DNA of 64,000 nt, from assembly GCF_000244895.1 (NCBI RefSeq), contig NZ_CM001441.1:1550001-1614000 (forward strand), written 5' to 3'. Of the stretch, positions 38,103 to 47,701 are shown in pieces. Position 1 is the stretch's first letter, and each line of letters starts with the position of its first letter. The position numbers and the translations under genes are program-made. This DNA is from Desulfosporosinus youngiae DSM 17734. GTDB lineage: Bacteria > Bacillota > Desulfitobacteriia > Desulfitobacteriales > Desulfitobacteriaceae. The notes beneath the pieces were generated by a model, which made no database searches, was not told the DNA's origin, and saw nothing but the letters and a program-made list of their open reading frames with translations.

Positions 38103-38846
38103 TTATTCTTGTATTCCTTTGCGTTTGCGCATGGAATCTTCACCATCAATCAAGATCGTGTAAGAATCATGGACAATTCTATCTAGAATCGCATCGGCTA
38201 AAGTACCTTCTCCAATCTTGCCATGCCAACCTGCGGGGGAAAATTGAGAACTGAAAATGGTTGAACCTTTTTTGTGTCTTGCTTCAACAATTTCTAAGAC
38301 ATCACGGGCTTCACTATTGGTCAACGGGACAAGCAACCATTCATCCAAAATGAGCAGACTGACGTGCTTGTATTGTTTCATAACTTTCTTGTAGACGCCC
38401 TCTCCTCTTGCCACGGCTAATTCATTCAGCAAATCAGGTAAGCGAATGTACTTCACAGTATAGAAGTTACGGCAGGCTGCAATGCCAAATGCACAGCTAA
38501 GGTATGTTTTTCCTGCTCCGGATGCCCCAAGGAAGATGATGTTGTGTTTCTCTTGGATGTAAGTACATGTAGATAACCGATTAATTTGGGTTTTGTCCAG
38601 TTTTCTATCTGCATGATACTCAATGTCTTCAATACACGCTTGATTAAAGTAAAGGTCTGCTTTACGGATCAGCCTTGTAAGTTTGTTGTCCTTACGCCTG
38701 GCCCATTCCGTATCAACCATGAGTCCAAATCGTTCCTCAAAGCATAATTCATTAAAGGTTGGGTCTTGTATTTGTTGCCGAAATGATTCCGCCATAGAGG
38801 TGAGCCGCATTTCGTTGAGTTTGCCGATCGTTGTTTCGTTAACCAT
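38103..38846 (-). CDS. istB: IS21-family helper ATPase IstB
   Basis: A 247-aa AAA+ ATPase that selects targets and activates the transposase. It has an N-terminal helical domain (NEMRLTSMAESFRQQI), Walker A LGASGAGKTYL, VKYIRLPDLLNELAVARGEG, Walker B SLLILDEWLL and DAILDRIVHDSY near the end. The frame is intact. Its start overlaps the istA stop. It is not useful for transposition in this copy because istA is broken, unless another intact IstA is supplied. Confidence 0.92.
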   Translation of the reverse strand: MVNETTIGKLNEMRLTSMAESFRQQIQDPTFNELCFEERFGLMVDTEWARRKDNKLTRLIRKADLYFNQACIEDIEYHADRKLDKTQINRLSTCTYIQEKHNIIFLGASGAGKTYLSCAFGIAACRNFYTVKYIRLPDLLNELAVARGEGVYKKVMKQYKHVSLLILDEWLLVPLTNSEARDVLEIVEARHKKGSTIFSSQFSPAGWHGKIGEGTLADAILDRIVHDSYTILIDGEDSMRKRKGIQE

Positions 38847-39379
38847 TATGAATTCCTCCCATAGTAGTCTGCGCCTCGGGTAAAGCCAAAGCCGGAGGGA
38901 TTTTCAGGGTTAACCGGTTCCTCTTTGGTGATTTTATCTTGGCCCGTTTGGATAATAGTTTGAATGCTTTTGTAGCTTGGGTTTGGCGTGTAGGAGAGTG
39001 CTTTTTTACAGGCTGCCTCTAAGCGGCTAACCGAGTATTTATCGGCTATCTTGAGTAAGCCCATGCAGCTTTTATACCCTTGTTGTTCTATACGATGAGA
39101 GGATAAGATAGCTTTGACAACGACAGTGGTGTTTTCCCCGATGCTTTTAGCCCAGGATACGAAGCGCTCTGCATTCCAGGCGGTGTACTTTTGATGGTCT
39201 TCCGGCATATGCTCCATGACCGTACTATATTGGCCAGGACGACCGTGCAATCGGGAGTGTGAGCAAATCCGATGGTTATTAAAAAATACTTCAACTACAT
39301 TACGGGTTATTCGAACATCGACCTTGTGTTTGATGTATTCATAAGGAACGCTGTAGTGCATCTTGTCCACTGAAATATG
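38846..39379 (-). pseudogene. istA: istA fragment 3 (C-terminal part)
   Basis: C-terminal portion of the IS21 transposase: FHISVDKMHYSVPYEYIKHK, then VEVFFNNHRICSHSRLHGRP and MPEDHQKYTAWNAERFVSWA, the usual IstA end. It begins exactly at the RIT1 insertion point; the residues before it (VQFNYHI) are at the other side of RIT1 at 42854. The Met at 39370 is internal, not a true start. Confidence 0.88.
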
Positions 39380-39469
39380 AAATGGAAAGCTGGAGAAAAT
39401 GTAAAGTCACATTCCTCAAGCGCTAAAAGCATGCTATTCTGAATGCTATGACTTTACATTTTAATCGGC

Positions 39470-40483
39470 TCACAATGACTGTAACCATTCCATTAGTGAA
39501 TTGTCTGTTTGCCACATAGGAACTTCTAGCTTTATGACATCTGGACACACAGCTTCAATAGCTTTGCGTTTCTGCTCACTATTGCAACGTGCATAAATTT
39601 CAGTTGTTGAGATTTCTGAATGTCCCAGATAATCTCTAATATAAATAAGTGGTACTCCAGCCTGCAGCATATGCATGCTTTTACTGTGTCTGAGTCCATG
39701 CGGTGATACAGTTTCCGGAATAATTGAAGGATTATTCTGACGAGCAACCGCTACATACTTATCGAGGATATAAGTTATTCCTGCCCGCGTGAGTTTTTTC
39801 TTGTTGCGGTTTGAAAATAACGGTACCCTATGCTCCTTTTTATAGTCAGCATGACAAATATTAATGTACTGCCTCACAAACTGTGCCGTTTTATCCATAA
39901 GAGGAATTATCCGTGTTTTACTTCCTTTGCCGGTCAGACGCAAAGTTGAAGGCTTTTCCTGACGGAAATCTTCAACACAAAGGTCTGCAATCTCTTGGAC
40001 TCTTGCAGCGCTGTCATATATTAAGCTCAATAGCACAAGATCCCTAAACCCTGATCGTGACGTTGTATCGACTGCATCAAGGACTGCTTTCACCCCTTCA
40101 ATAGTCAGGTATTCCAAAGGGTGTTCCGCCTCCTTCTTCCTTGGAATGGACCGTATCTGCTGGCACTGATAAATATAATCCGGTGTCTGCATCTGTACAT
40201 ATGCAAAGAATGATTTGATTGCAGCAAGCCTAATATTTCTGGTCGCTACACTTGAATTCCGTTCCCTTTCCAGCCAATCAAGATAGGCCAGAATCACATC
40301 TTTATTGAGTTCAGGGATTTCAACGTGATCCGGATTAAGATTTCTGACATCTTTGAGGTATGAGAACAATAGCATGTAGGAATCCCGTTTGGACGAGATG
40401 GTATTATTGCTGAATCCTCTTATGCCAGGAAGATACTCCGTCATATATCTGCTCATATATCTTGCCAGGTTTGTAGGTTTCAT
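39470..40483 (-). CDS. RIT1 tyrosine recombinase, third gene
   Basis: A 337-aa phage-integrase-family recombinase. The core-binding domain is followed by a catalytic domain with SAARVQEIADL (Arg I), a Lys in TGKGSKTRIIPL, HGLRHSKSMHML (HxxR), YLGHSEISTTEIYAR (His and nucleophilic Tyr). I start at MKPTNLARYM (40483), which overlaps the previous stop by ATGA and has GAGGTG ahead. All catalytic residues are present. Confidence 0.85.
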   Translation of the reverse strand: MKPTNLARYMSRYMTEYLPGIRGFSNNTISSKRDSYMLLFSYLKDVRNLNPDHVEIPELNKDVILAYLDWLERERNSSVATRNIRLAAIKSFFAYVQMQTPDYIYQCQQIRSIPRKKEAEHPLEYLTIEGVKAVLDAVDTTSRSGFRDLVLLSLIYDSAARVQEIADLCVEDFRQEKPSTLRLTGKGSKTRIIPLMDKTAQFVRQYINICHADYKKEHRVPLFSNRNKKKLTRAGITYILDKYVAVARQNNPSIIPETVSPHGLRHSKSMHMLQAGVPLIYIRDYLGHSEISTTEIYARCNSEQKRKAIEAVCPDVIKLEVPMWQTDNSLMEWLQSL

Positions 40484-41451
40484 GGCTGCACCTCTGGAAT
40501 GGCATAAGCACAAACCTTGGTGACTGCCGAAAGGATATCGGGATAAACTTCCGCCGTCATTTTCATATACTGGCTTGTCGCTGCTAAGGATTCATGGCCC
40601 ATATATGTGGATAATGCCGGCAGCATGTTTGAAAGATCGGCTCCTTCTTGCGTAGCCTTCTGAAGGACATGACAGCAATGAGTATGGCGAATGTCATGAA
40701 TTCTTGGGCCATAGCCTCTTCCTGCATGCTTTATTCCTGCCTGTACAAGTACCTCACGGAATCGGAGATAGACATTATGATGCGAGTATCTTTCCCGGGT
40801 AATTCCGATGAATAGGTATTCTTCAGGTCGATACAGAGGATGCATAACAGCGCAATACTGTTTTAGAATATCCAGCATACTATCTGAAACGGGGGTTAAC
40901 CGATCTTTATTGAACTTTGCTTTTTCAATGCGAAGAATGCCATTGACAAGATCAATGTGCTCTAATTTCAGGTTCAACGCTTCCATCACGCGAAGACCGG
41001 TACAATACAGAAGCCGGATCAGAACTGGCATGACCAGATGCATCGTAGATCTCCGATTCGGATAAATCCTGTTGCTTTGCATAAAGATTTCTTCCATTTC
41101 CGCATGTGTGAAAATATATGCAGAATACGGTGATTTTCGCTGGCGAATATATTCAAGGTTGACCGGTATGTAAGATTCATAGCCGGAAGCCATCAGATAC
41201 ATGGAAAACTGACGGATGCAACTGATCCGCTGCTGATAACTGCTCCTGTGTGATTCATAAGGCTTCTTTTGACACCATATATCCATAAGTTCTTTTGTTA
41301 TTACTGGAACAGAAATGTTCATTGAACAACAGAGGTCATCAAACTGTATTAACAACGGTACTTCCGATGTATATTTGTAGCCAGCGCTCCTTTTATAATC
41401 AAGAAAGTCCTGTAACAGATCTGAAAAAGTACTTTTGAATTCTCTGCTCAT
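40480..41451 (-). CDS. RIT1 tyrosine recombinase, second gene
   Basis: A 323-aa tyrosine recombinase with CTGLRVMEALNL (Arg I), HDIRHTHCCHVL (HxxRH), YMGHESLAATSQYMK (His, Tyr). The start MSREFKS at 41451 overlaps the preceding TGA by ATGA and follows GGGAGGT. It forms the middle member of the trio and presumably acts in one synaptic complex with the other two. Confidence 0.85.
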   Translation of the reverse strand: MSREFKSTFSDLLQDFLDYKRSAGYKYTSEVPLLIQFDDLCCSMNISVPVITKELMDIWCQKKPYESHRSSYQQRISCIRQFSMYLMASGYESYIPVNLEYIRQRKSPYSAYIFTHAEMEEIFMQSNRIYPNRRSTMHLVMPVLIRLLYCTGLRVMEALNLKLEHIDLVNGILRIEKAKFNKDRLTPVSDSMLDILKQYCAVMHPLYRPEEYLFIGITRERYSHHNVYLRFREVLVQAGIKHAGRGYGPRIHDIRHTHCCHVLQKATQEGADLSNMLPALSTYMGHESLAATSQYMKMTAEVYPDILSAVTKVCAYAIPEVQP

Positions 41452-42695
41452 AAGCGGATACCTCCCATCCATATGCCTTCAATACCTGGAACCTCCAAAG
41501 CAAGCGGACGGAGATGATAGATATCCACTTTTAAATAAATCTTTGTTGTATCCGTGATGGAATGCGACAAGGTTTCCGAAATGACTGAGAGCGGTACTTT
41601 TTTTTCAAGCATGGCAGTAGCCAGGCTGGCGCGTAAGGCATGTGGGCCATGGCGTCTTCCGGAATTAATGACAATCCCGGCATCACGAAAAGCTTTTGTT
41701 ACGATGGTGTGAAGGGAGGCTGGTTTTAGCACATGGTGGGGTGCCTGCATCTGCAGGAACACATGATTATCATCAACATTTGGACGGCAATCCTTGAGAT
41801 ATTTGATGATGGCATTGCCGACATCTGCTGGAAGTGGGAGTACGGTATGCTTTCCTGTTTTCCTGGTAATGAATTCGATTGTGCTTTTATCCCAGTGGAT
41901 TGCACTGAATTTTAGCCCGCAGATATCAGAAGCCCTCATTCCAAGCCTGACTGCAATAAGAACCATTGCATAATTCCTGATCCCCAGAGCACTAAATCGG
42001 TTAAAGGAATCCAGCATGGTTTCGATTTCTCCCGTACCATAAACGGAAGGAATGACTTTCCTTACCCTTACGGTCTGTACACAAGTGGAAAGGTCTTTTT
42101 CAACATATTTATTTACATAGAGATACTTCAGAAGAAGCCTTAGGGAAGAAGAAGCACTCTTTACCGTGGGGAGATTTTTCGATGCAGAGAGCCACTTCAT
42201 GAAGCCCATGATACTAGAGGCATCTATATCTGCAAGATGTCCTATTTTTGATTCATAGAGATATTTTGACAGATGGTTCAAGGTATAGATATCTCTGTTG
42301 ATTGTTGATAATGCATAGCTTCCAGATTTCCTTTCTGATAAAAACTGATTGAAGACTACTGCAAAAGGCTCATGGAACATGCAAGGCCAGAATGACTTTT
42401 CTTTTGTTATCTTCCCATCTTCGGCACAGTTAATCAGGATATGAACGGCGCGAGATCTGCGTTTGTCAATCGGCCTTAGATGGGCAAAGTTATTGCCGGA
42501 TTTAATGCCATAATGATTTTCCAGAAAACATAGCGCCGATTCCCTGCTAAAAGGGATGCCGTTATCTGAAAGATAATCTTTCAATCTCCACCAGGTATAG
42601 GATACCTGTGTTATGTGATCCTGTTTGAGACCATCTCCCTCCATAGCCTGTTTTGCTTGATTAATTAATTCATCGATTGTTAATGGCTGTTTCAT
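41448..42695 (-). CDS. RIT1 tyrosine recombinase, first gene
   Basis: A 415-aa recombinase, the first and largest of the trio. The start MKQPLTIDEL at 42695 has AAGGAGG ahead; the longer frame upstream lacks a site. The catalytic set is LGMRASDICGL, HALRASLATAML, LSHSITDTTKIYLK, with Ser in place of Gly before the conserved His (SHS). The N-terminal SAM-like core-binding domain is longer than in the other two. Confidence 0.83.
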   Translation of the reverse strand: MKQPLTIDELINQAKQAMEGDGLKQDHITQVSYTWWRLKDYLSDNGIPFSRESALCFLENHYGIKSGNNFAHLRPIDKRRSRAVHILINCAEDGKITKEKSFWPCMFHEPFAVVFNQFLSERKSGSYALSTINRDIYTLNHLSKYLYESKIGHLADIDASSIMGFMKWLSASKNLPTVKSASSSLRLLLKYLYVNKYVEKDLSTCVQTVRVRKVIPSVYGTGEIETMLDSFNRFSALGIRNYAMVLIAVRLGMRASDICGLKFSAIHWDKSTIEFITRKTGKHTVLPLPADVGNAIIKYLKDCRPNVDDNHVFLQMQAPHHVLKPASLHTIVTKAFRDAGIVINSGRRHGPHALRASLATAMLEKKVPLSVISETLSHSITDTTKIYLKVDIYHLRPLALEVPGIEGIWMGGIRL

Positions 42696-42853
42696 AAGTG
42701 CCTCCTTACTTGAATGTGTTATTAGTGATTCAAGTATAGAGGGCAAAATGTAAAGAAAATAGATATAAGAATACCCTAATTGGTACAGAGCATCTTTCTA
42801 CTTTACATTTTCTCCAGCTTTCCATTTCACATAAAATGCAAAGCTTTGCATTT

Positions 42854-43123
42854 AATATGGTAGTTAAATTGAACGGTTGCAACCTTCCAAATCGCTAATT
42901 CATAGGGAGCAGCAGGAAGGGGCAGTAGTAGTGCCTTTTCTTCTAAAAATACGGTCTGGCGGCTACCAGGTCTTTTCTGAAAGGGTTTTCGGTTAAATAC
43001 CTCAAGTTTTTCGCGAATCGCCCTATTAAGCTCCGCCAGAGAAAAGAATTGTTGGCGACGGAGAGCTGCAATAATCCAAGTAGATATGATGCCAACGGTT
43101 CCTTCAACACTAGGCTTATCCTT
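42854..43123 (-). pseudogene. istA: istA fragment 2 (middle part)
   Basis: No ORF starts here, but the minus strand is open for 90 codons and reads KDKPSVEGTVGIISTWIIAA, RRQQFFSLAELNRAIREKLE and AAPYELAIWKVATVQFNYHI. This is the part of IstA that follows the catalytic core, including the post-Glu region (VEGTVG). It joins fragment 1 (ending RKPKD) and fragment 3 (starting at SVDKMHYSVP) once both RIT elements are removed. Confidence 0.88.
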
Positions 43124-43236
43124 TTTATCTTAAATTCAAGATAACAAAGATTATCTTCAAAACCATGTTATCTTCAAAATCAGCAGAACTACCTTAAATC
43201 GCAAGGCAGTTCCGCCGTAGTTTAAAGATAATTAAA

Positions 43237-44277
43237 TCAGCTAAATCCGCAGTACTCAAGCAGATACTGCTCTTTGCCCTTCCAGTTTTTCTGTTTTGCA
43301 ATTGTTTTACCAATGGTTCCTTCAAGATCAACAGACTCTAATGCCTTTGTGATGGTTTCTTCATCCGAATAGGAATAAACACTCGTTGTTTCAATACTGC
43401 TGTGGCCAAGGAAGTCTCTTATGTAAGAGATAGGAATCCCTTTTTTATGCATAGCCATTGCAATGCTGTGTCTGAGCATATGGGCATGCAGTCCCTCAGG
43501 AAAAGCAGTATCGGCTTTGTGAGCGAGTTTTCCATATTTTTTAAGAAAGTAATCGACTGTTCCAGCTTTCATCTGTGTTTTCTGCGATTCATGTATGGTA
43601 TAGAACAGTGAAGCGCCCAAGGGACTTCCTTTATGGAAGCTTGCAAGATAGGCGTCCAGATGCTTTACTGTTGATCCAAGAAGAGGGACATACCTTGTTT
43701 TATTCCCCTTGCCATGGATTCTGACCCGTACACTGGTATCGCTGCGGATAATACTGTTCAACTGTAAGTCCAGTAATTCCTGAATTCTCGCGCCCGTTTC
43801 ATAAGCAAAAATTATGAAAAAGCGGTCACGCCTGCCAAGCCTTGTTGTTATGTCGGGCAATGAGAATAAAAGTTTCAGCTGTATCTGTGTTAGATACTCA
43901 ACGCCCGGCTGCTTAACGCCCTTGAATGCGTGGATGCTGGCAACATCAAGATAGACCGGCATCAGTTCCATGTCTTCCTCACTACAATATTTCAGGAAGG
44001 ATTTAATGGCTGACAGCCTCAAGTTAAGTGTCTGCGCAGAATTCTTTTGGGTATTCTTAAGCCACATCAGGAAATCGTAAATGACGCTCCTTGAAAAACA
44101 GGAAAACTCCATCCGATCAAAGCTGATGTTTTTTTCCTCTCGCAGATAATTTCGTAAAAGATTTAATGATTGACGGTAGGCTCTGGCTGTCTTGTCGCTG
44201 AAGTTCCTCTTTGTAATAAGATAATCGGTCAGAAAGTCACGGAGCAACTGGTAAAAGTGCATTTCATTCTTCTTCAT
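43237..44277 (-). CDS. RIT2 tyrosine recombinase, third gene
   Basis: A 346-aa tyrosine recombinase with ETGARIQELLDL (Arg I), HGKGNKTRYVPL (Lys), HAHMLRHSIAMAMH (HxxRH), FLGHSSIETTSVYSY (His, Tyr). The start MKKNEMHFY at 44277 has GGAGGTG ahead and overlaps the second gene by 14 bp. The family match is to the third gene of RIT1. Confidence 0.85.
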   Translation of the reverse strand: MKKNEMHFYQLLRDFLTDYLITKRNFSDKTARAYRQSLNLLRNYLREEKNISFDRMEFSCFSRSVIYDFLMWLKNTQKNSAQTLNLRLSAIKSFLKYCSEEDMELMPVYLDVASIHAFKGVKQPGVEYLTQIQLKLLFSLPDITTRLGRRDRFFIIFAYETGARIQELLDLQLNSIIRSDTSVRVRIHGKGNKTRYVPLLGSTVKHLDAYLASFHKGSPLGASLFYTIHESQKTQMKAGTVDYFLKKYGKLAHKADTAFPEGLHAHMLRHSIAMAMHKKGIPISYIRDFLGHSSIETTSVYSYSDEETITKALESVDLEGTIGKTIAKQKNWKGKEQYLLEYCGFS

Positions 44278-45241
44278 GATGCACCTCCGGCAGGATGTCA
44301 TCATTCACGGAAGAAAGCCGTTGTTCCATTTCAGGGTAAAAATCTTCCACAAGGGAAAGGTAATAATCCGTATCAGCATAATTGGAATGCCCCATATATT
44401 CGCTCAAGTAAGGATAAAGGGCGTTTATGTCCTGACCTTCCTTTACCCACTGATTCAATCGGTGAACCGCATACCCATGCCGAGCATCATGAACTCTTGC
44501 CGGATTTCCTGTAATTGCATGAGATTCAGGCAGTTTGTCCCAGAACTCATGGAACCAGCAGTCAAGCATTGATTTATTAAAGCAGTTTCCATGCTTGTTG
44601 GGGAAAAACACTTGTCTGTCTGGGAACATGGATTCCATGATGAAATCATACTCGCTGCATACCTCCTGCAGATCTTCGCTCATGTATACGATCCTGGCCT
44701 TCCAGCCTTTGGATTCCCGTATGGATATCTTTCCTGTTTCAAGGTCAACATCCTCTTTTTTTAGCAGGCGTGCTTCCGAGGAACGCAGCCCGCAGCAGTA
44801 CAGCATGCGGAAGATGACCGGTATGACATATCTCCTGGTCGGAGAGAACGGTGAAGGAGGGCACTGATCAATGGCCTTGAAAAAGGCTTTCAATTCGGCA
44901 ACCGTATAAATATGGGCCTCATATTTAATCTGTCTATTCGGGATGTGACCGGGAATGACATAAGCATCGTATCCAAGCCCTTTCAGGTATTTACCAAGCT
45001 GCCTTACCGGAGTAACCCTTCTTAAAAGACCGTTCGAATGCTCTCCAGACTTTGACTGGATCCAGGCAGAGCCCATTGCCCGTGTTATTGTGCTCTCTCC
45101 CGGGAACTTTTCAGCCGCAAGTAAATCAAAGTGATACAGTATTTGGGCTGAAGACCGGTAAGGATAACCCAATGCGCGTTTCTGGATGATAAAGTCTTTA
45201 ATGCAGGTACCGAGGAGACTTTTAAATGTATAATCAGTCAT
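44264..45241 (-). CDS. RIT2 tyrosine recombinase, second gene
   Basis: A 325-aa tyrosine recombinase with CCGLRSSEARLL (Arg I), HDARHGYAVHRL (HxxRH), YMGHSNYADTDYYLS (His, Tyr). The start MTDYTFKSLL at 45241 has GGGGAGGTG ahead and overlaps the first gene by 8 bp. It is the counterpart of the middle gene of RIT1. Confidence 0.85.
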   Translation of the reverse strand: MTDYTFKSLLGTCIKDFIIQKRALGYPYRSSAQILYHFDLLAAEKFPGESTITRAMGSAWIQSKSGEHSNGLLRRVTPVRQLGKYLKGLGYDAYVIPGHIPNRQIKYEAHIYTVAELKAFFKAIDQCPPSPFSPTRRYVIPVIFRMLYCCGLRSSEARLLKKEDVDLETGKISIRESKGWKARIVYMSEDLQEVCSEYDFIMESMFPDRQVFFPNKHGNCFNKSMLDCWFHEFWDKLPESHAITGNPARVHDARHGYAVHRLNQWVKEGQDINALYPYLSEYMGHSNYADTDYYLSLVEDFYPEMEQRLSSVNDDILPEVHHEEE

Positions 45242-46817
45242 CAGAAGCACCTCCCCGCCATGAAACCCTGCCTATGACGGACAGATCCAGCGCGCACATC
45301 CGAAGCATGGATTCCTCCATGGACAAATAAGGTTTGTCGGATTCCTTTGAGGTGTGTCCAAGCGCATCGGTAATGACCTGGTGAGGTACTTTAGCAACCA
45401 GAAGTTTATGTACCATGGAATACCGGAAAAGGTGCACGCCCCTAGCAGTACCGTTTACCGGCTTTATCCCCAGGCAGCCAAGCAGTCTGGAACAGGTTGA
45501 GTAAACAGAAGTCAGTTTATTGTAAGGCGCCTGTTTCCGTAAGAATATATATGGGTAATGGTCGGCTCGTTTCGGTCTCTCATTCAGAATGTAATCCATC
45601 AGTGCGTTGCCAACATCTTGGAGCAATGGCAGTACGAGAGGTTCGCCAGTCTTTTTCTGGATCAGCCTGATTTTATCATTGCGCCAGTCAATCGCCTGAA
45701 AAGTGAGATTGCAGATATCGCAATCACGCAATCCCAGATGCATGGCAAGAAGGATTACTGCTTTTGTGCGTTTAGACTCTTTAGCCAGCTGTGCAACCAG
45801 TTTTGTCTGATCTTTTTCAGAAATATATGCGGCAACCGAGCCCCGCTGTACAAAGCCTCCCATTACAATGCCGGACAAATCTTTCCTGATCAGGCCGACT
45901 GTATGAAAGAACTTAAGCAGTGAACGCAGGATTGGAAGTATGGTTGCCATGCTCCGTCTATTGCAGATGCCTGCAAACTTTGTAATGACAAGATGGATCT
46001 TTTCGGGTGAAAGAGACAGTAAATCTTTCGGTGTTTCTATCCCGGTGAACTCCACGGTTTTTCGGAATACATAATCGTGCAGGTCGATTGTGGATCGGCT
46101 GAGGTTGCGCTGCTCCAGCGACCCAAGGTACTGTGAACGAATGGATTCTACCTCTAAGCTGCTAAAGTCGGCATCTCGGTTGATCATTCCCCAAAGAAAG
46201 CGCCCTGTATTTGCGACTTCCATCAGGACATGTGCCGCCTTACGGTTAATTTTCCACTTCCATTCCTTCATGGAGCCTTTATTACGTAGGTTATTTATTT
46301 CTTGGATGAAGCATTTCATCAATGTTTCATCATATCCAGAGACACCGGCATCATAAAAATAGCATCGTATGTCCATCCAGGAATGCTTGTATTGCCCCAT
46401 AGTAGAATCCGTGAGCTTAAGGTATCTCATTTCAATCTCAGCCTTGACAAGGAGGTAATCAATATGCACGTCTGCTGTTATTGGGAACTCCCTGCTCTGA
46501 AAAAACCCATGGACTTCTGCATCATTCGGCATGGGTGGTTCGTTGAACGGTATGCCGTGTTCATCTCTGGCTTGTGTACAGGCTAATGTGTCAACCAATT
46601 TTACGCAGCGAACATGCAGTGCGCGGCGTTCCGGTGAACCATTGTCCTCTCTAATGAATGCATCATATAACTCTTCGCATGGTTCCGTAATGCCAAGTGA
46701 TTTAGCACACTTTAGCATCTGGTTGAAGTAGCGGCGTCTGGACTCCCAGGTTTCATTGGCAAGTTCAGATTTCAACTGCTGCAAAAGGGTATTGATAGTA
46801 GTTTCAAGCTTTGTCAT
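45234..46817 (-). CDS. RIT2 tyrosine recombinase, first gene
   Basis: A 527-aa recombinase, longer than its RIT1 counterpart because of an extended N-terminal region (about 150 residues) of unknown role. The catalytic set is LGLRDCDICNL, HLFRYSMVHKLL, ALGHTSKESDKPYLS. The start has AAGGAGG ahead. The frame is intact, so RIT2 may still be mobile. Confidence 0.83.
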   Translation of the reverse strand: MTKLETTINTLLQQLKSELANETWESRRRYFNQMLKCAKSLGITEPCEELYDAFIREDNGSPERRALHVRCVKLVDTLACTQARDEHGIPFNEPPMPNDAEVHGFFQSREFPITADVHIDYLLVKAEIEMRYLKLTDSTMGQYKHSWMDIRCYFYDAGVSGYDETLMKCFIQEINNLRNKGSMKEWKWKINRKAAHVLMEVANTGRFLWGMINRDADFSSLEVESIRSQYLGSLEQRNLSRSTIDLHDYVFRKTVEFTGIETPKDLLSLSPEKIHLVITKFAGICNRRSMATILPILRSLLKFFHTVGLIRKDLSGIVMGGFVQRGSVAAYISEKDQTKLVAQLAKESKRTKAVILLAMHLGLRDCDICNLTFQAIDWRNDKIRLIQKKTGEPLVLPLLQDVGNALMDYILNERPKRADHYPYIFLRKQAPYNKLTSVYSTCSRLLGCLGIKPVNGTARGVHLFRYSMVHKLLVAKVPHQVITDALGHTSKESDKPYLSMEESMLRMCALDLSVIGRVSWRGGASDD

Positions 46818-46963
46818 ATGTTATCCTCCTTCTGCCTGTATCAGGCTGTCTAAAGGATAACCCTATATACGGATTTATTATCTTCAATTTCATGCTATTG
46901 GCTGGCTGTAAATTTAGCAGTTCTGCTGATTTTGAAGATAACATGGTTTTGAAGATAATCTTT

Positions 46964-47701
46964 GGGTTTTCTCACCCGTGCCGGAATAACAGCGGTTCCG
47001 TAGTACTCTGCCATTTCGTGATAGGACTTGTTGATAACTGGAGTATACCAGGACGTTCGTTCTACACCAGTTTTCAGATTATCCGGAACGAGGATTCGAG
47101 TAGCACCCCCAAAGTACTTATATGCATTGATATGGGCTGTAATCCAGGACTCCTGGTTTTGGTTCAGAAATGCTTCCACATAGGCATATTGACTGTACGA
47201 GAGGACGGTTACAAAAACATAAGCATCAATGCTCTCGCCTGTATCCGTATCGATAATGCTTGCTGTTTGGCCTGCCCAGTCGACTTCCATTTGCTCGCCA
47301 GGCTTTCGTCCGATGTGCATAGTTGCCTTGGTTTTGGCCACATATTGTTGGTAATGATAGCAAAACTGAGAATACATAAGTGGAATTTCATTGCTGAGTC
47401 TGGAAGATTCACAGTATTCATTCCAAAGCAGGCTGAGGGTTACGCCGCTCTTCGCCATTTCTTTATGAATGTACTCGTTATCTGGGCGTTTTCGGGTTAA
47501 TGGTAATGAAGATTCGGGAAAGAAAAGCTTGTGCAACTCACCGTTCGTCCTATCTGGGTTCAATGGCCACGAAACACTAAGTTCCTGAGACCGTTTCAAG
47601 ACCCTGGCGACAGTGTTGCGTGAACATTCGCAGCTCACTGCGATGCTGCGTTGACTGATTCCTTGGCTAATAAGCCGAAGAATCTCGCGATAATTGGTCA
47701 T
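46964..47701 (-). pseudogene. istA: istA fragment 1 (N-terminal part)
   Basis: N-terminal part of the IS21 transposase. It has a helix-turn-helix (LISQGISQRSIAVSCECSRN), an rve/DDE domain with MEVDWAGQTASIIDTDTGES (first Asp), and ILVPDNLKTGVERTSWYTPV (second Asp). It runs to PARVRKPKD, where RIT2 is inserted; the frame then reads into RIT2 and stops at 46895. An intact istA would be about 500 codons. Confidence 0.9.

Follow-up and report, generated by a model that had tools for sequence, protein, structure and literature searches.

Two RIT elements (RIT1 and RIT2) split a single istA gene in the window, the whole stretch of 64,000 nucleotides of Desulfosporosinus youngiae DSM 17734 DNA that we analysed, and at one end only of each element the terminal inverted repeat (IR) is followed by a hexamer, a 20-bp palindrome (PAL) and a second hexamer. 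The question raised by this locus is what such a one-sided block represents, and how it comes to lie on the ritA (promoter) side in RIT1 and on the ritC (distal) side in RIT2, a difference that the preliminary description of the locus had recorded and that we found again. RITs were described in 2009 by Van Houdt et al., and PMC10214605 reports 34-bp terminal inverted repeats for them. In their passages on these features, Van Houdt et al. 2012 (PMC3414803) mention an overlapping palindromic sequence, give it no role there, remark that the features are at odds with the usual binding sites and find the need for three recombinases hard to see. In a table of a 2023 paper, RIT target specificity, empty site and movement are listed as untested. 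The comparisons below lead us to consider it likely that the block corresponds to the joint region in a circular intermediate of RIT transposition, with two divergent crossover sites that share PAL, and that integration at one site or the other decides the end at which PAL is found.

Architecture of the IS21 host and its two RIT elements

The host is an IS21-family element at 38103-47701 with istA and istB on the minus strand, and its istA is split twice, by RIT1 and by RIT2 (Table 1). The two RITs are distinct, with a ritC identity of 34%, and occupy two conserved sites within this one gene. Each contains three overlapping ORFs, all with a Phage_integrase domain, and terminal inverted repeats are present (33 nt at 97% and 46 nt at 100%, spacer bases included); in these two respects, the overlapping tyrosine-recombinase genes and the terminal repeats, the window elements are like the known RITs of PMC3414803. 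The labels RitA, RitB and RitC were assigned from gene order and from ritC similarity to the Cupriavidus necator pHG1 trio.

Read from the PAL-free end, RIT1 and RIT2 have the same order, host_L - d - IR ... IR - i - PAL - o - host_R, where d, i (inner) and o (outer) are hexamers of six bases each. In target orientation, d, i and o are AATATG, TATGTG and AATATG in RIT1, and CAAAGA, CAAAGA and AAAGGA in RIT2. Direct reading of RIT1 bore out the end structure outlined earlier, namely the right IR followed by CACATA, a perfect palindrome and AATATG, with AATATG also before the left IR. The outline of RIT2 was likewise correct: the left IR is followed by a hexamer and an imperfect palindrome, and this inner hexamer is the inverted form of the other-end hexamer TCTTTG (46959-46964).

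Upon removal of the span from IR to o, the joined istA translation remained open across each site. This bears on the idea that the palindrome pre-existed in the target and that RITs insert beside palindromes, which would account for the position of PAL outside the IR and for nothing further. We give this idea almost no credence, since the istA translation stays open once PAL is removed with the element, PAL was not in the uninterrupted targets examined, and PAL resembles the element's own IR; it was rejected as contradicted in the targets examined.

Table 1. Coordinates of the IS21 host, RIT1 and RIT2 features in the window.
Feature	Positions	Strand	Evidence
istB, same IS21	38103-38846	-	Pfam IstB_IS21 1.8e-61
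Host istA, 3' part	38846-39373	-	Pfam Mu-transpos_C_2 2.9e-11 on ORF 38846-39370
RIT1 hexamer d AATATG, PAL-free end, target's own	39374-39379	+	same hexamer in empty site of closest istA homologue L164
RIT1 IR, ritC side; tip motif AAATGGAAAG, second motif AAATGTAAAG 17 bp further in	39380-39407	+	
RIT1 ritC, tyrosine recombinase, 347 aa	39470-40513	-	Pfam Phage_integrase 1.5e-27
RIT1 ritB, tyrosine recombinase, 330 aa	40480-41472	-	Pfam Phage_integrase 6.8e-24
RIT1 ritA, tyrosine recombinase, 432 aa	41448-42746	-	Pfam Phage_integrase 6.4e-27
RIT1 IR, ritA side	42800-42827	-	
RIT1 inner hexamer i CACATA (TATGTG in target orientation), putative carried coupling sequence	42828-42833	+	TATGTG at homologous istA position, L172
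RIT1 PAL AAATGCAAAGCTTTGCATTT, perfect 20-bp palindrome, two inverted IR-like half-sites	42834-42853	.	
RIT1 outer hexamer o AATATG	42854-42859	+	
Host istA, middle part, between RIT1 and RIT2	42860-43118	-	uninterrupted homologue L164, 96% over joined flanks
RIT2 outer hexamer o TCCTTT (AAAGGA in target orientation), foreign to target	43119-43124	+	
RIT2 PAL TTATCTTAAATTCAAGATAA, imperfect 20-bp palindrome, 9/10 pairs	43125-43144	.	
RIT2 inner hexamer i CAAAGA (TCTTTG on minus strand)	43145-43150	+	
RIT2 IR, ritC side; two motifs 17 bp apart	43151-43190	+	
RIT2 ritC, tyrosine recombinase, 355 aa	43237-44304	-	Pfam Phage_integrase
RIT2 ritB, tyrosine recombinase, 328 aa	44264-45250	-	Pfam Phage_integrase
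RIT2 ritA, tyrosine recombinase, 527 aa	45234-46817	-	Pfam Phage_integrase
RIT2 IR, ritA side	46919-46958	-	
RIT2 hexamer d TCTTTG (CAAAGA in target orientation), target's own	46959-46964	+	CAAAGA at empty site of 96% identical istA L164
Host istA (IS21 family), 5' part	46965-47701	-	NCBIfam transpos_IS21 1.4e-52 on ORF 46895-47701

Occurrence of the palindrome block at other RIT ends

RIT loci were gathered by ritC similarity from genome contigs, genomes of the same order, 398 genomes of the phylum and plasmids. The genome contigs gave 27 loci, of which 16 (L007-L022) were scanned and the remaining 11 (L023-L033), none above 30% identity, were only inspected; 40 places were taken from the same-order genomes, another 40 from the draw of 398 phylum genomes, and 10 of 2415 plasmid records entered the scan. 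To pass the scan, a locus needed a PAL with 7/10 pairs or more, separated by 6 bp from a tip similar to the PAL arm, and a matching IR at a distance of 2.6-4.5 kb. Four duplicates (L064, L117, L119 and L153) were removed by flank identity; of these, L117 and L119 are unlike their partners in the inner hexamer or in the orientation of the body.

When many RIT ends were compared, in line with the suggestion of the preliminary description, 62 of 108 loci (58 after removal of duplicates) passed the scan for the plan IR-hexamer-PAL-hexamer, and none of the 180 shuffled controls (60 loci, three mononucleotide shuffles each) did. The block at RIT ends exceeds chance. That description had regarded copies lacking the palindrome or the hexamer as evidence against its reading; such copies are not the rule, yet 46 of the 108 loci failed the scan. 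The passing loci include members of the Clostridia, Bacilli, Alphaproteobacteria, Actinomycetota and Bacteroidota, as well as L149, which is probably spurious and was kept in the scan counts and left out of the hexamer and motif averages. By eye, Cupriavidus pHG1 follows this plan too; its tip is less similar, and it fails the scan. The opposite end of each element served as an internal control, with at most 4/10 palindromic pairs in 53 of 57 loci and 9-10 in the other four. When 116 loci were checked with looser criteria, 59 had PAL at one end, no IR was detected in 34, and 23 were without PAL by that criterion, the last group including both-end and weakly palindromic cases.

PAL was found at both ends in 4 of 57 loci by the scan, and likewise in L238, so that L010, L093, L108, L124 and L238 form the both-end copies; it is at neither end of L011 and L245, and was absent from the inspected ends of L011, L245 and L237. 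Both-end and neither-end copies look like products of recombination between two RIT copies. In particular, L238 and L245 lie on opposite strands of the S. medicae ml42 plasmid pMl2 (NZ_CP140903.1) and are perhaps reciprocal products of an inversion between two RITs. S. medicae ml42 (NZ_CP140901-NZ_CP140903) contains ten near-identical copies of one RIT, in hosts that are IS110-like by eye, and this RIT has probably been active recently.

Similarity of PAL to the inverted-repeat motifs

The IR contains a 10-bp motif twice, and in 54 of 56 loci the second copy lies 17 bp from that at the tip. The mean match of the PAL arms was 8.7/10 to the second motif, taking the best of two arms and four offsets, and 8.4/10 to the IR tip, the latter value being partly selected by the scan criteria. 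On sequence grounds, PAL is two IR-like motifs placed back to back. The PAL of S. medicae and Salipiger is 6/10 palindromic overall and its outer five bases alone pair fully, which suggests that the unit is an inverted half-site pair rather than a palindrome as such. From the likeness of the PAL arms to the IR motifs we infer that the palindrome may be a recombinase binding site, as had been proposed.

A transcription terminator or regulatory hairpin, unrelated to transposition, would also be palindromic, and PAL adjoins ritA in about half of the copies. We hold this reading to be highly improbable and rejected it on four observations: the 6-bp spacing from the IR tip (imposed by the main scan, but also the best spacing in many loci of a free scan), the PAL arms that match IR motifs, the location of PAL at the distal end in 26 of 58 loci, and the weak pairing of only 6/10 in S. 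medicae.

The right flank of the target matched the IR tip of the same element at 3.73/10 and the tips of other elements at 3.28/10 (51 loci, P 0.002, the best of four tests), a resemblance that is expected if the tip replaces host_R in the crossover. We also observed RITs inserted right against the IR tip of another RIT family (L206, 2487-2543; L209, 126-182; and L145), which indicates that an IR tip can act as the right half of a target.

Side, orientation and target polarity of PAL

Of the 58 unique loci, 32 have PAL at the ritA end and 26 at the ritC end, where each of the four both-end loci is counted under its better-scoring end; the end is thus not fixed. The orientation of PAL relative to the genes, readable in near-identical copies with an imperfect PAL, was constant in six of seven informative near-identical families (G157, G295, G050, G218, S. 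medicae and Salipiger), and PAL switches ends in five of these six, G218 being the one without a switch; the pair L122/L123 was uninformative. In S. medicae, 15 of 17 listed loci have PAL, and the 12 distinct copies share a single orientation. Constant orientation combined with end switching is what a fixed joint, IR_C-hexamer-PAL-hexamer-IR_A, would give if either of its sites could be used.

The exception is the Sphingobium plasmid pair L188/L189, in which the same element has PAL on the same side in opposite orientation. This pair may reflect an in-place inversion of the element body. With such inversion through the near-perfect IRs, PAL would stay on a single host side; this would account for changes of side at one target and fits L188/L189, but the inversion would reverse PAL relative to the genes, and six of the seven informative families keep the orientation, five of them with a change of end. 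As a general explanation it is therefore very unlikely, and it was rejected for most families, with Sphingobium perhaps excepted.

Relative to the target, PAL was on the same side of the target motif in 30 of 30 loci from nine classes, and in six of these classes the gene side varied between members. The nine motif classes (at least two members each) were assigned by eye from the 58 listed loci, and the count excludes unassignable loci, one-member classes, the short-flank loci L009, L074 and L112, and L125/L126, which agree with each other. The proposal that the palindrome marks polarity is accordingly upheld with respect to the target and fails with respect to the genes. Additionally, the S. 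medicae pairs L187/L242 and L236/L244 have flanks identical at 300/300 bases and opposite body orientations, with PAL on the same host side; L187 and L242 also have different inner hexamers. Together, the 30 concordant loci and the S. medicae pairs indicate that the target sets the polarity of PAL and that the body orientation is free.

Hexamers and empty sites

The inner and outer hexamers agreed at 5.07/6 in target orientation, compared with 0.93/6 when inverted and 1.79/6 when shuffled between loci (56 loci). Among the 57 unique loci with a d, all three hexamers were equal in 23, only d and o in 12, only i and o in 10, only d and i in 2, and all differed in 10; these classes include the four both-end loci, in which d is not a plain host junction, and the probably spurious L149. 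The comparisons suggest that the hexamers are coupling sequences, some of them carried from earlier targets.

The 23 loci with three equal hexamers, and the 12 in which d equals o with a different i (RIT1 and 11 others, three with PAL at both ends), would also follow from a fixed asymmetric end of IR, hexamer and palindrome together with an ordinary 6-bp target duplication, AATATG in RIT1. Against this, d and o differ in 22 of the 57 loci, the empty site supplies only one of the two, and PAL occurs at either gene end. The explanation is exceedingly unlikely, and ordinary target-site duplication was rejected because d and o are not identical direct repeats in those 22 loci.

Empty sites were sought for 11 loci in which d differs from o, and seven yielded an empty or related site. 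Compared with these sites, the hexamer at the PAL-free end was the target's own in four loci, mixed in one, neither in one and reversed in one. For RIT2, the empty site in the 96% identical istA L164 reads CAAAGA, which is d; of the 18 matches outside the window, 11 uninterrupted istA homologues were examined and none had the outer hexamer AAAGGA. The RIT2 flanks gave no close match among plasmids. The empty site of L107 reads TCGTCA, equal to d (59/60 flanking bases, two M. huakuii plasmids), and its target is a recombinase gene immediately upstream of a ritC homologue (ritB by position). Those of L185 (CTTGAC) and L186 (TTTGAC) also equal d, with 300/300 flanking bases each and one record per locus. 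For L111, 146 records had good coverage; of the four that were read, the nearest is equal to d and three have GCGCAA, which is nearer to o; the nearest relative of L184 reads TTTCAC, neither d nor o. The exact empty site of L239 (300/300) equals o and not d, so hexamer placement is not strict, and a rule that d is always native was dropped. Searches with L077, L112, L115 and L241 gave their own flanks or weak partial matches and no uninterrupted target. In the loci with empty sites, the target's hexamer thus appears to be kept mostly, not always, at the PAL-free end.

The earlier view of the inner hexamer as a carried coupling sequence agrees with RIT1, where TATGTG is absent from the closest uninterrupted targets (which read AATATG) and present at the same istA position in G016 (L172). 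It required one correction, in that the outer hexamer is usually carried too, as AAAGGA of RIT2 illustrates.

A related possibility keeps the same two-site joint and assumes ordinary conservative excision and integration with 6-nt staggered cuts, the heteroduplex hexamers then segregating randomly with no strand bias, so that d and o would be native equally often. The native o of L239 and the mixed L111 are consistent with it, and heteroduplex resolution is described for GInts in the relevant part of PMC5385486. However, d is native in four clear cases (RIT2, L107, L185 and L186) against one for o, and loci with i equal to o and a different d outnumber those with d equal to i and a different o by 10 to 2 (P 0.039), or by 13 to 3 with four hand-added plasmid loci (P 0.021), contrasts in which the loci are not phylogenetically independent. 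We regard random segregation as possible but rather doubtful.

Most hexamers in S. medicae and Salipiger are different synonymous codon pairs for Val-Lys in IS110 targets, an exception being CTTCGC in L241. By eye, RIT sites also fell in codons of catalytic or conserved motifs within other mobile genes in L081, L083, L092, L097, L114-L116, L128, L133, L141, L076, L077, L113, L084, L088, L107, L065 and L109. The motifs hit are presumably the IstA/DDE Glu, IS66 motifs, the IstB Walker A and B and the reverse-transcriptase PQGG, and we take the others to be the tyrosine-recombinase LRHSxA, the methyltransferase PCQ and the zincin HELTH.

Proposed mechanism

Comparison between loci establishes the anatomy of the block, the target polarity, end switching with constant PAL orientation (six of seven families) and the presence of foreign hexamers. 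In the mechanism that we propose, the joint of the presumed circle would be IR(ritC side)-hexamer-PAL-hexamer-IR(ritA side), and the block would stay at one end once the circle has integrated. If PAL consists of two recombinase half-sites back to back, the joint would hold two divergent PAL-hexamer-IR sites that share PAL. The target would be host_L-hexamer-host_R, and the crossover would link host_L to the IR tip and PAL to host_R, with the fixed polarity seen in the comparisons. As either joint site could be used, the body would enter in either orientation and PAL would come to lie at either end of the element, on the same target side, as is seen in the comparisons.

The hexamers would be the 6-nt exchange segments. 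The target's own hexamer would usually remain at the PAL-free end, the circle-carried hexamer would come to lie outside PAL, and the third, from the unused site, would remain between IR and PAL. During circle formation the joint would take up the hexamer from the PAL-free end, by analogy with strand-biased circularizing integrative (SE) elements. The element would thus carry tags from earlier targets. Binding of the recombinases to the tip, the second motif and PAL, and a defined order of strand exchange, are likewise presumed. We lean towards the fuller reading, in which a two-site circle, a target-set PAL polarity and a free body are combined with three hexamers that record the present target and up to two earlier ones, often codons of catalytic motifs in other mobile genes.

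Six donor-product pairs fit a history in which d becomes i, i becomes o and PAL flips (L076 to L077, L115 to L116, L184 to L186, L186 to L187, L218 to L221 and L218 to L242). Nine hexamer-compatible pairs were observed versus 7.3 when hexamer pairs were permuted within families (P 0.31); six of the nine flip as predicted and three do not, versus a permuted mean of 4.5 (P 0.27), and two of the three pairs that would fit use of the other site flip, against prediction. The permuted data fit nearly as often, so the pairs were rejected as proof, and the donor-product history is compatible only.

The preliminary description had proposed a search for circular joints, and with a pattern that fits only TTAT-type tips this gave no circle joint in 398 genomes, the two hits being attributable to chance and neither of them RIT-like. 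Among viral contigs the free-joint search returned 13 stretches; L206 and L209 share one sequence, in which a RIT end abuts the IR of another RIT, and L214 and L204 have 9/10 palindromic centres with no matching IR opposite. In G295 the PAL pattern occurred exactly four times, once per RIT copy (four copies), and this one pattern revealed no solo palindrome scar there. A search for solo scars gave one two-mismatch site in G000 and none in G050 and G157, where the pattern did not fit the genomes' own palindromes.

Significance and comparison with known systems

The two-site joint, carried hexamers, end switching and target polarity were not found in the open-access literature searched; Ricker et al. 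2013 lies outside it, and the RIT end anatomy may be partly described there already. With its two sites and its motifs of three kinds (tip, second IR motif and PAL arm), such a joint offers a concrete, testable substrate. The block and its hexamers suggest how RITs form circles and insert anew, a movement that has yet to be reproduced in the laboratory, and the hexamers could allow earlier targets to be read from sequence alone. In the survey, RITs appeared to prey on conserved motifs within other mobile genes.

Tn916-type elements carry non-homologous 6-bp coupling sequences from former targets, as RITs appear to do with their hexamers, but have one integrase with Xis and a single joint site. 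GInts share with RITs a tyrosine-recombinase operon, 6-nt staggered exchange and attachment sites altered after excision, and differ in having four genes and a poorly conserved 3' end, with no palindrome mentioned in the part of PMC5385486 that describes them. The Tn554 family resembles RITs in a 6-bp footprint carried from the donor (PMC10214605); compared by description only, it differs in its genes, TnpA, TnpB and TnpC, and in that the description mentions no PAL.

Another comparison is with SE elements, as far as their hexamers are treated in PMC9345347 and PMC10214605. The SE circle has a 6-bp spacer between the element ends, and upon integration the donor's left 6 bp are carried next to motif C' and the target's 6 bp lie next to C. 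The placement of d and o in RITs follows this arrangement in four of the seven loci with an empty or related site, with one mixed, one neither and one reversed. The genes differ: SE elements have IntA, Tfp, IntB and Srap and one joint site, whereas RITs have RitA, RitB and RitC, near-identical IRs and, in the proposed joint, two sites sharing PAL. In the window, the ORFs of at least 150 aa between the repeats are three, all Phage_integrase in an ORF list and domain search made without Tfp or Srap profiles, and do not form an intA-tfp-intB-srap set. Unlike that of SE elements, a RIT joint with two sites sharing PAL would allow the body to flip.
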